Source: a virus | DNA: 34,969 nucleotides | Reading direction: 5' to 3' (one strand) | Virus record (IMG/VR): IMGVR_UViG_3300042888_002852 | Span: 1 to 34,969 of that record | Shown here: piece by piece, positions 3,984 to 27,889 of the stretch | How positions within the stretch are numbered: the first letter of the stretch is position 1 | Layout of the letters: each line of letters starts with the position of its first letter | Program-made: the position numbers and the translations under genes | Notes under the pieces: generated by a model | What the model saw: only the letters and a program-made list of their open reading frames with translations | Databases searched by the model: none | What the model was told of the DNA's origin: nothing

Positions 3984-4405
3984 AATAACCCCAGTTATAA
4001 AAAAAATAAATTAAAAAATGGAAACAACTATGTATTTTATTTTAGGTATCCTCACGATTATTGTACCAATATTCATTGGTATGATTATTATGGGTTTAGT
4101 TAAGATTAACAGACAACAAAAACAAATAAAAGATCTTATTGAACAAATTAATTTTCAAGGGAGAGATTTTAATAACACATTCTTAGACATTCGTAGGTCA
4201 AAAGAAAATGATACTCGTAATATGTATGAAGAATTACGAGAGTTAGAAAAAAGAGTACAAAATCATTTAGATGATTTTAAAAGAGAAACAAAATCGTATA
4301 CCGATTCTAGGGTTGATAAATTAATTGACACCTATTTTGAATATAAAAAAATAAGTAAAGATAGTAAGGAACTATTAAAGGACTAAAATAAAAACTGGGG
4401 TTATT
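3984..4405. repeat. 13-base perfect inverted repeat flanking the 4018 gene
   Basis: AATAACCCCAGTT at 3984-3996 is the exact reverse complement of AACTGGGGTTATT at 4393-4405. The arms lie just before the start and just after the stop of the membrane/coiled-coil gene at 4018-4386. A GC-rich core of this kind is rare in this AT-rich sequence. No transposase or target duplication is visible. Confidence 0.6.
4018..4386 (+). CDS. Single-span membrane protein with coiled-coil tail
   Basis: The 122-residue product has one long hydrophobic helix at residues about 5-28 (YFILGILTIIVPIFIGMIIM) followed by a charged, heptad-like region to the C-terminus rich in Lys, Glu, Arg and Asp. This is the shape of a membrane-anchored coiled coil with the soluble part inside the cell. 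Spanin or holin roles are not supported, because there is no lipobox and only one span. The gene is bracketed by the 13-base inverted repeat at 3984 and 4393, which sets it apart as a possible unit of its own. Confidence 0.75.
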   Translation: METTMYFILGILTIIVPIFIGMIIMGLVKINRQQKQIKDLIEQINFQGRDFNNTFLDIRRSKENDTRNMYEELRELEKRVQNHLDDFKRETKSYTDSRVDKLIDTYFEYKKISKDSKELLKD

Positions 4406-4436: not shown

Positions 4437-4697
4437 ATGCCAAGATTTTCAGAAGAAGTAGATTTCAACATTAGTGTTGAGGAATTTTTATCAAAATGTT
4501 CACCAAAAAATATTAAAGACTTAATACAATTATTAGAAGATGATAATCACATCAACCAATATAATAATAGAGTGTTAAACTTTATGGAGGAGAAGTATGT
4601 TAATCATTGTAATCATTTAAAAAATTCTTACTTACAGATTAGTAAAGAAGATTATGAGATAATAGAAAATTTATCTAAAAAATATGGTGGTTACTAA
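4437..4697 (+). CDS. Small hypothetical protein
   Basis: The 86-residue product (start MPRFSEEVDFNISVEEF) is predicted to be mainly helical and acidic, with two cysteines but no metal-binding pattern. I do not recognise the family. It lies in the same orientation as its neighbours, with 50 bases of A/T-rich sequence before it and the ATATTTAT element of the next gene starting at its stop codon. Confidence 0.65.
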   Translation: MPRFSEEVDFNISVEEFLSKCSPKNIKDLIQLLEDDNHINQYNNRVLNFMEEKYVNHCNHLKNSYLQISKEDYEIIENLSKKYGGY

Positions 4698-4704
4698 TAT
4701 TTAT
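4697..4704 (+). promoter_or_regulatory. ATATTTAT element before the secreted-protein gene
   Basis: ATATTTAT starts at the last base of the preceding stop codon and lies 15 bases before the ATG at 4720. It is one of the longer-spaced examples of the recurrent element. Confidence 0.4.
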
Positions 4705-4719
4705 TAGTAAAAAAACCCA

Positions 4720-5823
4720 ATGAAAAATTATTTTAAATCTTTATTTCTATTTTTTTCAATAATTTGTACTTTACATAGTAATTCTCAGACAATATGTCCA
4801 ACGACAATTCTTTATGATTATATGGAAACATATACCTGGTTTGGTAATTGGAGTACACCCACTAATACTGGATTTTATTTAAACGCTTCGGTAACACCCT
4901 CAGTTAGTGGAGTAATATTTGGATCAGGTAATGGTTCATCGGGGATTGAAACGGCTATATACACTTTACCAAATGTAACTGGTTTAAATAGTCTTTATAA
5001 TTATAAATTTAGATTTAGACTAGCTTCATATAGATTTTCTAATCCAACCACTGCGACAGCTGGTGTTGATAACCCTGATTACATTGATGTAAGATATTCA
5101 ATAAACAATGGAACTTCATACACAACTGAAATGAGGATTACTGGTAACGCTAACGCTTATTGGGATTACAACATTTTAGGTGTGATCACTAAAACAGCTA
5201 CTGGTATTATGACAACATATTCACCATTAGGTGGGGGTAATCGAACAACCACCGGAGATGGGTATTCAGTACTTGAATTAACATTACCAGTTGGTATTAC
5301 ACAATTAATGTTTCAAATAAGTTGTAGAGTTAATTCTGCTGGAGAAGAGTGGTGGTTAGATAATGTTGAATTGATTGAAATGACTCCTTGTTCAATATTA
5401 CCAATAGAATTAGTTAGTTTTGATGGTTTTAACCATATAAATTATAATTATTTAACTTGGGTATCAGCTACTGAGGTAAATAATGATTATTATTTGTTAG
5501 AACGAAGTGTTGATGGTATTAATTGGGTTGAAATAACTAAAAAATATAGTATTGGTACATTAAATACACCCACTTTTTATGATTATTCTGATCATACCTA
5601 TATAAATGGTGAAATTAACTATTATCGTCTATCACAAGTAGATTATGATGGTAAAAAAGTATATTTTAACATAATTAGTTTAGAATCAAAAAATTCCTTA
5701 AATAACTGTCTTTATGAGTATTTTAACTTAAATGGACAAGAAATTGATATCCAAAATGTAAGTTCTGGACTTTATTTAAGGAAATGTGGTAATAAATTTG
5801 AAAAAATTCTTAAAATTGAATAA
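4720..5823 (+). CDS. Secreted protein with Bacteroidota T9SS-like C-terminus
   Basis: The 367-residue product has a signal peptide (basic start MKNYFKSL, hydrophobic core to about residue 19, probable cleavage around NSQ at 21-23). Residues about 25-224 form a beta-rich, Asn/Thr/Gly-rich domain closing with WWLDNVEL, as in jelly-roll adhesion modules. Residues 227-322 begin LPIELVSFDG and contain LTWVSATEVNNDYYLLERS and YYRLSQVDYDGKK, the hallmark module before T9SS sorting domains in Bacteroidota. The last 40 residues (FNLNGQEI, SSGLYLRKCG, KILKIE) match the core of a type A sorting domain, although the usual proline-rich first strand is missing. If functional, it would be exported by the host T9SS and shown at the cell surface. 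It was probably acquired from a host. Confidence 0.85.
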   Translation: MKNYFKSLFLFFSIICTLHSNSQTICPTTILYDYMETYTWFGNWSTPTNTGFYLNASVTPSVSGVIFGSGNGSSGIETAIYTLPNVTGLNSLYNYKFRFRLASYRFSNPTTATAGVDNPDYIDVRYSINNGTSYTTEMRITGNANAYWDYNILGVITKTATGIMTTYSPLGGGNRTTTGDGYSVLELTLPVGITQLMFQISCRVNSAGEEWWLDNVELIEMTPCSILPIELVSFDGFNHINYNYLTWVSATEVNNDYYLLERSVDGINWVEITKKYSIGTLNTPTFYDYSDHTYINGEINYYRLSQVDYDGKKVYFNIISLESKNSLNNCLYEYFNLNGQEIDIQNVSSGLYLRKCGNKFEKILKIE

Positions 5824-9959: not shown

Positions 9960-9967
9960 ATAAATAT
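9960..9967 (-). promoter_or_regulatory. ATATTTAT element, minus strand
   Basis: Read on the minus strand, ATATTTAT ends five bases before the ATG at 9954. The opposite-strand occurrence supports a directional role. Confidence 0.5.
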
Positions 9968-10060: not shown

Positions 10061-11551
10061 ATGGGTAAAGTAAAAGTTAAAATAACAGAATCTCAAATGA
10101 ATTATTTATTTGAGAATAGTAGAATTGATTATTTAAAAAATCAATTTGGTGTAATAAGTAATACGGAATTTGAAGAACTTTCAAAAGCTGAAAGAACAAA
10201 AGGAAGGGGTAGAAAACCAAAAGACGTAACACCTTCAGATGTTGAAGGTACTGAGACACCAAAAGAAAAGAATTATACATTAACTCCAATTAAAACACCA
10301 GAAGGTGGGTTAATCGCTTTAATCTTAACGGATGAGAAGGGTAAAAGTAAAGTTAGAATTTCAGAAGAAACTTTTAATAATATAGTTAACGCTGATCCAA
10401 CAAATAATAAAATTTATGTTCAATGGTTATTAAAAATTTTAATTGAGTTCATCAAACATAAAGATTTTGAAGAAGCGGCCAGATTTGTTGATGAAGATTT
10501 ACCACAATTAAGTCAAACATTAGTGGTTTTTGATGAAGTCAAAAATCTTAATAAGTTTAAAACTTACGCGGCAAATGAACCTGGATTACCTAGTAACCCT
10601 TCAAATATTTTAAGTTATACTTCAATAACACAACTTTATTTGGCTATTGAACCTTATATTGAAAAATCTGATGCTAGTGATTTAGAAAAAGCGTTAAATA
10701 AATTTATTAAATTAAAGGAAGCTAAAATTGTTTATGAAGATAGTAAATGGTTAGTTTATGAACCATTAACAAGAGAAGCTAACTGTGCTTTACCAAATCC
10801 TGGTTTAGTTAAATTTTGTACTGCTAACCCTGGAAATAGTTACTTTCAAAGATACACCTCAGAAGGTGGTAACTTAGGTCCTGGTGGAGAAAAATCAAGA
10901 ATTTACGATATTATAAATAAAAAAGTGTTGACTGGTGAAAGTGGAGAAGTTTATCAATTCCATTTTGAAAGTGAACAATGGAAGGACGCTAGTAATGGAC
11001 CTAATATAAATCTTGTAAATTTTTTTAGTGCTAATCCAGGATTAGGTCAATTTTTTAGTGACATCTTAAAAGACTTAGCTAAAAGACTTAACGTTAATGA
11101 CTTAGAAAGAAATAAATATTTAAGAATTTTATCACAAATTGGTGAAATTGATAATATTTTAGAATATTTTGATGTTGATTCTGAATCAATAGATCTTAAA
11201 AGTTATAGACTTAAAAATTTATCTTCTGATATTAGTAATTTTAAAAATTTATACTCTTTATCACTTAATAATGCTGGTTTAAAATCATTCCCAAATGAGA
11301 TAACTAAACTTAGTAATTTAGCGATATTATTTGCACCAAATAATAATATTAAAGAACTACCTAAAGATTTTGGGGATTTAAAAGAGTTACACGTACTTAA
11401 TCTTGAAGGTAACCCACTTAAAGAATTGCCGGAATCTATTTCTAAATTGAATGGTAATTTCTTAAAAATTAAACTTCCTAAAGAGATGTCTGAGGAGGCT
11501 AAAAGTAGAGCCACAAAATTATTATCAAAAACGACAATTACTTGGGTATAA
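10061..11551 (+). CDS. Tagged leucine-rich-repeat protein of the KFCT / YQFH-ES-Q family
   Basis: The 496-residue product begins MGKVKVKITESQMNYLFE, the long tag type. A basic RGRGRKPK stretch at 48-55 resembles an AT-hook. The central domain (about 225-330) has VKFCTANPG (Cys253), FQRYTSEGG and VYQFHFESEQWKD, shared with the protein at 1907. Residues about 385-475 hold roughly four leucine-rich repeats (LYSLSLNNAGLKSFPNEI, LAILFAPNNNIKELP, LHVLNLEGNPLKELP). LRRs bind proteins, so the picture is a tagged recognition domain joined to a possible catalytic one. Delivery into the host with the genome is one idea; a purely intracellular role is another. Confidence 0.88.
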   Translation: MGKVKVKITESQMNYLFENSRIDYLKNQFGVISNTEFEELSKAERTKGRGRKPKDVTPSDVEGTETPKEKNYTLTPIKTPEGGLIALILTDEKGKSKVRISEETFNNIVNADPTNNKIYVQWLLKILIEFIKHKDFEEAARFVDEDLPQLSQTLVVFDEVKNLNKFKTYAANEPGLPSNPSNILSYTSITQLYLAIEPYIEKSDASDLEKALNKFIKLKEAKIVYEDSKWLVYEPLTREANCALPNPGLVKFCTANPGNSYFQRYTSEGGNLGPGGEKSRIYDIINKKVLTGESGEVYQFHFESEQWKDASNGPNINLVNFFSANPGLGQFFSDILKDLAKRLNVNDLERNKYLRILSQIGEIDNILEYFDVDSESIDLKSYRLKNLSSDISNFKNLYSLSLNNAGLKSFPNEITKLSNLAILFAPNNNIKELPKDFGDLKELHVLNLEGNPLKELPESISKLNGNFLKIKLPKEMSEEAKSRATKLLSKTTITWV

Positions 11552-25599: not shown

Positions 25600-25805
25600 A
25601 CAAACTAAATAAAGAACTAATAACACTAACAAAAAGTGATGTAATGTTTCTTATAGCAAGTGCTATGGGTTATGGATGGAACGCGTCTGGTGGATATCGA
25701 GATGGAGAATTTGAAAAAATTCAAAAACGAAAAGAATTAGAAAAAGAAAATTTACTTAAATGGGCAACAACTATAAGTCAAAACAAATATGAACAACCTA
25801 GATAA
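25596..25805 (+). CDS. Small helical protein (MNNLDK-start group)
   Basis: The 69-residue product begins MNKLNKELITLTKSDVMFLI. It contains SAMGYGWNASGGYRDGEFEK and a basic helical tail. It overlaps the upstream disrupted gene by four bases and the thyA start by 17. Function unknown. Confidence 0.66.
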   Translation: MNKLNKELITLTKSDVMFLIASAMGYGWNASGGYRDGEFEKIQKRKELEKENLLKWATTISQNKYEQPR

Positions 25806-27000
25806 AAGTTACACAGACCTACTCCAAGACATCTTAGATAATGGAGTAACAAAAGATGACCGTACAGGTACAGGAACAATCTCAGTATTCGGAAGACAAA
25901 TACGTCATAAAATGAGTGATGGGTTTCCATTGATTACTACGAAACGAATTCCTTTTAGATTAGTGGTTACTGAACTTTTATGGTTCTTACGTGGTGATAC
26001 TTCAATAGAGTATCTTTTAAAGAATGACTGCAATATATGGACAGGAGACGCTTATAAGAATTATATATTTAATTCAGAGTGGTTTCCAATTTCAAGTGTA
26101 ACTGGTGGATTTATTGGAACTAAATCTGATAGTGATGAAATAATGACTCAAGATTTATTCATCAACAAAATCAAAACAGATGATGAGTTTGCTAAGAAGT
26201 GGGGCGATTTAGGTCCTGTGTATGGTAAGCAATGGAGAAGTTGGGGTCCTATGATGAGAGATATTATTCCGTTAGAGACTGGAGGATACGTCTATAAAGG
26301 ACCAATAGACCAAATAGCAAACCTAATCAACGACCTTAAAACAAATCCTGATTCAAGACGCTTAATGGTTAACGCTTGGAATGTTGGCGAATTAGACCAA
26401 ATGGTTCTTCCACCTTGTCATTATGGGTTCCAGCTTTACACAAGAGAGTTAACTGAACGTGAAAGAAATTCACATTCAATAGCATGTGATGTTAGAGGAC
26501 AATTTCGTACAATGTTTTCCGAAGAAGAATTAAATGAATTTAATGTACCCAAAAGAGTAATCTCCCTAATGTTTAATATGAGAAGTACCGATGTTGGACT
26601 TGGCCTTGGATTCAATTTGGCCTCATACGGATTATTATTGATGATGATTGCTAAACAAGTTAATATGGTTCCTAACGAACTGATTTATAATGGAGGTGAT
26701 GTACATTTATATTCAAATCATATTGAACAAGCAAAGGAACAGATTGGTAGAGAAATGAATCACGATGAAAAAGTTAAATACGCTCGTTCATTGTATGGGG
26801 ATAAAGATTGGTGGAATATCAATGATGATAGAGTTTTAGAGATATTACATTCTAACAAAAGAACAAGAGAACCATATCCGTTACCAACAGTAAAATTATC
26901 TGATAGAGTTGTGAATGATATTTCAGAATATACTTTGGATGATATTGTTTTAGAAAATTATCAATCACATCCATCCATAAAAATGCCGTTATCTAATTAA
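25789..27000 (+). CDS. thyA: Thymidylate synthase ThyA with family-typical insertions
   Basis: The enzyme converts dUMP to dTMP with methylene-tetrahydrofolate. Conserved parts appear in order: DRTGTGTISVFGRQIRHKM, GDLGPVYGKQWRSW, PDSRRLMVNAWNVGELDQM, LPPCHYGFQ with nucleophile Cys210, RSTDVGLGLGFNLASYGLL, GGDVHLYSNH and the C-terminal SHPSIKMPLSN. At 403 residues it is longer than E. coli ThyA (264) because of three insertions: before GDLGPVYGKQW, between the Cys and RSTD segments, and near residues 325-360. The start carries the MNNLDK module, so a chain start has been attached to a long-conserved enzyme. It is followed by a GIY-YIG endonuclease. Confidence 0.97.
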   Translation: MNNLDKSYTDLLQDILDNGVTKDDRTGTGTISVFGRQIRHKMSDGFPLITTKRIPFRLVVTELLWFLRGDTSIEYLLKNDCNIWTGDAYKNYIFNSEWFPISSVTGGFIGTKSDSDEIMTQDLFINKIKTDDEFAKKWGDLGPVYGKQWRSWGPMMRDIIPLETGGYVYKGPIDQIANLINDLKTNPDSRRLMVNAWNVGELDQMVLPPCHYGFQLYTRELTERERNSHSIACDVRGQFRTMFSEEELNEFNVPKRVISLMFNMRSTDVGLGLGFNLASYGLLLMMIAKQVNMVPNELIYNGGDVHLYSNHIEQAKEQIGREMNHDEKVKYARSLYGDKDWWNINDDRVLEILHSNKRTREPYPLPTVKLSDRVVNDISEYTLDDIVLENYQSHPSIKMPLSN

Positions 27001-27055: not shown

Positions 27056-27889
27056 ATGAAGAAGTTTTTAGTGTATGAAATCAAAAACAATATAAACGGT
27101 AAATCTTATATCGGGCAATATAGTGGATTATCATTTGAGAAATATTTTGGGAGTGGAAAGTTGATTAAGTTAGCAATAAAAAAATACGGATTAGAAAATT
27201 TCTCTAAAACTATTTTAGAGGAGTGTTCTAATAAAGACGAGTTGAATGAAAAAGAAATTTTTTGGATTGATAAACTCAAAACAATTGAGAACGGTTATAA
27301 TTTAACAGAAGGTGGCACTGGTGGAGACCTATCTGAATTTATTAAGTATGATGAGAGTTGGGTTGAAAACCAAAGACTCTCAACAAAAAAGTATTGGGAC
27401 AATATAAATGATGATGAAAGAAAAATAAGAAGTGAAAATGTGTTTGGTGAGAAAAATGGGATGTATGGTAAAGACGGATTTTGGAAGGGTAAAAAAATAC
27501 CTAAAGAAATCGTTAAAAAGTCATTAGATAATAGAAGAAGTTATAAAAAAGAACTGAACCCAAATTGGAAAGGGGGTTTAACTTACGTCTATTGTGAATG
27601 TGGTAAAAGAATAGGTTACGGACACACTCATTGTAATAAGTGTAGACACCGAAGTGAAAATAATAATCCATTCTTTGGTAAAAAACATACTGAAACATAT
27701 AAGAAAAAATCGTCAGATAGAATGATGGGTGTTTATAATGGAAAAAAAAACATACCAATAATAATTGATGGTGTTGAGTTCAGGTCGGCAGGAGAGGCGT
27801 CAAAAGTTCTAAATATTCCTATGGTAACTATAAGGTGGAGAGTTAAAAGTAAAAATAAAAAATTTGACAATTACAAATATAAAGATTAA
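27056..27889 (+). CDS. GIY-YIG homing endonuclease with NUMOD-type tail
   Basis: The 277-residue product has an N-terminal GIY-YIG-type nuclease (VYEIKNNINGKSYIGQ at about 6-21, then a FGSGKLIKLAIKKYG helix, EKEIFWI with the catalytic Glu, and NLTEGGTGG). Next come repeated NUMOD3-like segments (GKKIPKEIVKKSLDNRR; FFGKKHTETYKKKSSDRM) around a small Cys-rich knob (CECGKRIGYGHTHCNKC). A C-terminal NUMOD1-like helix-turn-helix closes it (GEASKVLNIPMVTIRWRV). It is a free-standing mobile nuclease whose target is probably in or near thyA, recalling I-TevI and td in T4, though no intron is seen. Confidence 0.92.
   Translation: MKKFLVYEIKNNINGKSYIGQYSGLSFEKYFGSGKLIKLAIKKYGLENFSKTILEECSNKDELNEKEIFWIDKLKTIENGYNLTEGGTGGDLSEFIKYDESWVENQRLSTKKYWDNINDDERKIRSENVFGEKNGMYGKDGFWKGKKIPKEIVKKSLDNRRSYKKELNPNWKGGLTYVYCECGKRIGYGHTHCNKCRHRSENNNPFFGKKHTETYKKKSSDRMMGVYNGKKNIPIIIDGVEFRSAGEASKVLNIPMVTIRWRVKSKNKKFDNYKYKD

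Follow-up and report, generated by a model that had tools for sequence, protein, structure and literature searches.

Phage-encoded cargo of the type IX secretion system (T9SS) is already known as a general idea. Cryophage was reported in 2020 to encode T9SS type A cargo, with host secretion and superinfection exclusion suggested (PMC7468147); the genes concerned, described as variable, encode an endoglucanase, a GH39 hydrolase and a PA14 protein. In Flavobacterium johnsoniae, type A C-terminal sorting domains (CTDs) rely on the PorV shuttle, which is followed by static anchoring or release (PMC12618676). Shorter signals have been described in Prevotella intermedia, where short CTDs of 40-51 residues form one three-stranded sheet and carry motifs B, D and E with a short B-D spacing, and where short and long CTDs both support cleavage and glycosylation (PMC11969387). 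For HBP35, the last 22 residues suffice for GFP export (PMC4804311).

Here we describe a phage protein whose family, to judge by the published description, differs from the Cryophage cargo: it is built around a non-enzymatic jelly-roll, occurs in many phages, mostly ends in a short CTD and is partly fixed beside capsid genes. The window – the whole stretch of DNA that was analyzed – is IMG/VR virus record IMGVR_UViG_3300042888_002852, 34,969 bases in length. Its phage origin is safe because the record carries genes for a phage lysozyme, RNA ligase, thymidylate synthase, homing endonucleases and a viral-type ATP-dependent protease, and the record is likely to be part of a larger genome. No T9SS genes were found on it.

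Several other features of the window were recorded in passing (coordinates refer to the + strand unless marked otherwise). Three genes (17021-11814, - strand) share between them a Clp-type AAA+ unfoldase, whose broken ends, at both Walker A sites, resemble intein halves. A free-standing DUF559/EDxHD-like nuclease gene (14575-13094, - strand) lies between the unfoldase parts, an arrangement that resembles the ‘fractured gene’ split-intein layout. A 496-aa phage protein whose C-terminus has leucine-rich repeats is encoded at 10061-11551, and a GIY-YIG-type homing endonuclease gene (27056-27889) comes immediately after that for thymidylate synthase (25789-27000). Many unrelated open reading frames, at 821, 1288, 3193 (the lysozyme), 6208, 7672, 9954 (- strand), 32587 and 34694, have similar N-terminal tags, MKxLIKKILKE or ...LTESDLxxLVKKI..E, reminiscent of the T4 internal-protein capsid-targeting peptides that are cut after (L/I)xE.

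The gene under study runs from an ATG at 4720 to a stop codon included at 5823 and encodes a predicted T9SS cargo protein of 367 aa. A signal peptide is followed by a jelly-roll domain (residues 27-222), a fibronectin type III (FN3)-like domain (226-322) and a 45-residue C-terminal tail. A sequence-only reading had described this open reading frame through the motifs LPIELVSF, LTWVSATEVNNDYYLLERS, YYRLSQVDYDGKK, GQEI, SSGLYLRKCG and KILKIE, and all of them are present. The leader (residues 1-23, MKNYFKSLFLFFSIICTLHSNSQ, 4720-4788) reads as a Sec-type signal peptide and is modeled as a helix over residues 4-18. By sequence and a simple hydropathy heuristic (not SignalP), the protein carries the Sec signal peptide of T9SS cargo, and a hydrophobic, Q-ending leader of the same character is found by this heuristic in 39 of the 40 distinct relatives whose N-terminus can be read.

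The N domain (4798-5385) was modeled by AlphaFold as a jelly-roll beta-sandwich with a pLDDT of 91.9 and a pTM of 0.89. Foldseek matched the model to MAM, CBM16, CBM61 and CBM22 domains and a porphyran-binding CBM at TM-scores of ~0.4-0.64, and the model also resembles ephrin-receptor domains. In relation to the MAM, CBM16, CBM61 and CBM22 domains the likeness is one of jelly-roll fold, with identities mostly of 8-15% in the matches listed. The domain is thus like the carbohydrate-binding type in its predicted structure, but its ligand and function are not fixed by the fold, because the matches represent a broad superfold at low identity. Matches to CBM_56 and delta-endotoxin C were set aside, being sub-threshold and inconsistent over the family (CBM_56 appeared below threshold in one of 45 members). 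Domain profile searches and Foldseek found no enzyme family for the protein, and with the window protein as query there was no match in NCBIfam or PHROGs.

The middle domain, D2 (LPIEL ... YYRLSQVDYDGKK, 5395-5685), has an FN3-like fold and is a domain that typically stands directly ahead of T9SS sorting domains. Relatives of D2 and of the N domain occur in Bacteroidota. In phylum samples of 198-247 Bacteroidota genomes, drawn evenly and not amounting to a census, D2 reached E<=1e-10 in 103 of 247 genomes, and the N domain was present in four of 198. Every complete host protein that we read continues from D2 into a type A-like tail of 59-105 residues that reaches the C-terminus. Host proteins related to the N domain are likewise secreted: L116 is a 316-residue frame in which a signal peptide and the N domain are followed by a type A sorting domain (51.8 bits against a cut-off of 23), and L115 and L117 are larger proteins resembling endonuclease I. 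The N domain and D2 thus both come from T9SS cargo.

The sequence-only reading had called the C-terminus T9SS-type, and this holds through the domain company and the relatives, though not through the tail alone, which falls under curated cut-offs. Scored alone, the tail reaches 15 bits for PF18962 against a cut-off of 27 and has no NCBIfam match; the window protein thus lies outside the long type A CTD class as defined by TIGR04183 or PF18962 above cut-off. The T9SS assignment therefore rests on domain company and relatives rather than on the tail alone. The window tail scored 10.0 bits with a profile built from host type A tails, compared with an average of -0.7 and a maximum of 9.3 for shuffled tails, and hhalign related the short tails of the relatives to host type A CTDs with a probability of 72 and an E-value of 3.4e-5. 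The short viral tails occupy the same position as the type A domain, follow the same D2 and, by profile comparison, align with part of it, but the window tail is about half as long. Between the two glycines, host long CTDs have ~26-27 residues in the examples counted, versus 11 in the window.

That same reading had taken the tail to lack its usual first strands and had suggested that export could be weak. We found instead that the tail has the anatomy of the P. intermedia short CTDs. This predicted short CTD (residues 323-367, 5686-5820) comprises the 45 residues after D2, within the 40-51-residue range, and is supported by its strands, by alignment and by hhalign. Its model contains a three-stranded sheet (residues 333-335, a short strand, 350-356 and 359-365), in a block with a pLDDT of ~62-85. 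A motif B-like NLNGQEI (5725-5745) includes Gly339, and a motif D-like SGLYL (5764-5778) with GxY includes Gly350, 11 residues further on; both glycines are invariant in alignment A1, and the GxY is not kept by every relative. A motif E-like basic strand, FEKILKIE (5797-5820), is identified from the sequence and from the relatives' tails, and forms the end of the protein. Because the window tail shares its length, three-strand topology and B, D and E motifs – and also the short B-D spacing – with the P. intermedia short CTDs as described, the ‘missing strands’ are better read, by analogy, as a short CTD. P. intermedia is the only species reported to have short CTDs, and there they are chromosomal, whereas here they occur in phages and in a few hosts among other Bacteroidota.

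Tails of the same short type end the host proteins L120, L123-L129, L132 and L133, several of which have clear signal peptides. The host form is LGREV...YxDGSxxKxxxx. Few genomes have it: four of 247 across the phylum, where some cases are not true short tails, and 10 of 249 in one order. From sequence, these LGREV-type tails are possibly an unannotated short T9SS signal outside Prevotella.

The weak scores of the tail also bear on a different outcome, in which Sec exports the protein to the periplasm, the short tail no longer acts as an export signal, and the protein works in the periplasm or at the inner face of the outer membrane. The scores under curated sorting-domain cut-offs favor this outcome, as does the departure of most viral tails from the canonical motif D GxY, the commonest viral form being GIxxEIYDDGTxKK. 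We nevertheless consider it unlikely. The window tail aligns with the tails of all relatives and is kept at the exact C-terminus, with dN/dS mostly below 0.3; host secreted proteins such as L120, L132 and L127 share this kind of tail; the short CTDs of P. intermedia function (PMC11969387); and relatives with full CTDs exist. Two of these are viral proteins, L063 and L054, in which the same N domain is joined to a TIGR04183 type A sorting domain (35.2 and 31.5 bits against a cut-off of 23).

Other T9SS-type proteins are encoded by related phages. Among 48 sister viral records, type B CHU_C domains were above cut-off in seven and full Por_Secre_tail domains in seven, compared with none of 14 control genomes for either domain. 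Searches of GenBank phages gave four matches, all in uncultured records of 462-642 kb and with D2 common to all; three of these four huge-phage records also contain Por_Secre_tail above cut-off, and the D2 proteins of LR756502 and LR745206 end in short tails of the family kind. In L056 the family gene adjoins type B cargo genes, and in L072 and L073 a subtilase gene sits between two family copies.

Two observations were made beside these genes. Small signal-peptide proteins occur in runs near or beside the family gene in L056 (4369-12834) and L041 (19496-20619), and either have gliding-type (type B, CHU_C) sorting domains or cluster with phage proteins that do. The subtilase of L073 (11081-13105; also in L072) begins with a signal-peptide-like stretch, contains SprB repeats and ends in a similar short T9SS-like tail.

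Homologues of the whole protein are overwhelmingly viral. A single-sequence scan of viral contigs identified 23 relatives and an alignment-based scan of IMG/VR identified 62 loci, with a best E-value of 3e-123; L002 is the nearest of them, with 55% identity over residues 9-358. In bacterial genomes, a single-sequence search with peptide patterns found no relative, and the alignment-based search found one partial relative, L081, with only D2 and the tail. In the alignment, three host sequences are 26-31% identical to the window protein and the viral ones 46-59%. Because of the 62 viral loci, the near-absence from bacteria and the greater closeness of viral than of host relatives, the family is viral, with cellular ancestry. 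A protein of an uncultured Caudovirales phage in BFVD (A0A6J5PHN9, 354 aa) is 41% identical over the whole model; it is annotated as uncharacterized, and its record description gives no function or secretion route.

The cargo gene also shares an upstream element with its phage. The element TATTTATT (4698-4705) lies 22 nt upstream of the start codon and is common to other phage genes: TATTTAT(A/T) occurs within 35 nt upstream of nine of 57 window genes (0.6 expected), for example at 4698, 6197, 9298, 28284 and 29477 and, on the - strand, at 9966, 14599 and 17031. TATTTAT likewise precedes 13 of 34 family genes (1.9 expected). The sites are 10-24 nt ahead of start codons, and since most lie at 10-12 nt, which is too close, the element is unlike an ordinary -10 box; it may serve the phage as a promoter or in initiation. 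The T4 late promoter TATAAATA was upstream of none of the 34 family genes and was rejected.

The clear descent of its domains from Bacteroidota T9SS cargo could be taken to mean that the gene is a host cargo gene without a phage role, present through recent pickup or misassembly. This is scarcely credible. The architecture recurs in 62 viral loci, and misassembly is refuted by the many independent assemblies that carry the gene and by its recurring neighbors, which dispels the concern that the region might be chimeric. The viral relatives are far closer than any host relative. The gene suits its phage in GC content (0.290 against a gene mean of 0.282), in its unexceptional codon usage and in the upstream element that it shares with other window genes. 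It is also under purifying selection, with dN/dS of ~0.09-0.29 for the whole gene over eight pairs, in several of which pS is high.

Gene context varies over the family. In about 13 loci the family gene directly follows the prohead protease (Peptidase_S77, gp21) and Gp23 major capsid genes on the same strand, a position that suggests late expression. In about 11 others it is ahead of a MoxR-like AAA gene and near a GroEL-like gene. These two larger contexts differ, so the neighborhood does not pin down function. Ig-like domains are frequent in phage decoration proteins, and together with the position after the gp23 capsid gene this could point to a virion protein – for example, an Ig/FN3-like capsid decoration protein – with leader and tail as ancestral leftovers. 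We regard such a role as quite improbable: the signal peptide, kept in nearly all relatives, would take the protein out of the cytoplasm, where heads are assembled, and at other loci, the window included, the gene is not beside capsid genes.

In the window, the cargo gene is instead downstream of the lysozyme gene and of a gene (4018-4386) for a small protein with one N-terminal membrane segment, a coiled coil and a weak Rz-spanin-like profile match. The latter also adjoins the cargo gene in L037 and L070. Between this gene and the cargo gene of the window, a small conserved protein is encoded (4437-4697), with a homologue near the cargo gene in L056. This arrangement would suit a T9SS-exported protein that, instead of masking receptors or acting in adhesion, serves lysis or release in concert with the neighboring lysozyme and spanin-like genes. 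Such a function seems improbable, given that the two largest context groups are without such neighbors, that no enzyme family was found in the cargo protein and that the N-terminal tag on the lysozyme means that it may be an internal virion protein.

We therefore return to export to the outside of the cell. The signal peptide, the company that D2 keeps with sorting domains, the relatives and the virus-dominated family bear out the earlier claim of a phage-encoded predicted T9SS cargo, and display or release by the infected cell, as that claim implied, is the best reading of such a protein from its sequence. As candidate roles the sequence-only reading had named a block to superinfection, altered gliding or adhesion, and help with release. 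From sequence and modeled structure, we think it quite probable that this is a glycan-binding-like phage protein exported by Sec and then by T9SS onto or off the infected cell. Sec would carry it to the periplasm, where T9SS, with its SprA translocon and PorV shuttle, would recognize the tail, as known biology suggests; the protein would then be anchored on the cell or released. More tentatively, expression may come late in infection, and the jelly-roll domain may coat the infected cell by binding either surface glycans of that cell or extracellular polysaccharide. Receptor masking with superinfection exclusion is the use of such a coating that we prefer, although as a specific function it is rather doubtful; a change in adhesion or aggregation is our second choice, after coating to block later phages.

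Within open-licence papers, we found no account of a widespread virus-specific family of this kind, of its short CTD or of the link to the capsid block, and nothing usable on huge-phage surface proteins or on T9SS-linked phage resistance. A broader proposal, to which we give somewhat less than an even chance, is that large Bacteroidota phages (both T4-like ones and those of 460-640 kb being included) routinely re-dress the infected cell via the host T9SS. They would do so with a virus-specific family that bears a minimal sorting signal, has a fixed place in the capsid gene block of many phages and comes with cargo of types A and B – a jelly-roll protein, a subtilase, and SprB-repeat and gliding-type proteins.

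The short tail would also be a minimal T9SS signal of natural origin from outside Prevotella, and tags of 35-45 residues would make the requirements of T9SS recognition directly testable. If the proposal is right, a common group of phages places virus-chosen proteins outside the cell via the host's outer-membrane secretion machine, an intervention beyond lysis that would bear on superinfection, on cell adhesion and on phage ecology where Bacteroidota abound.
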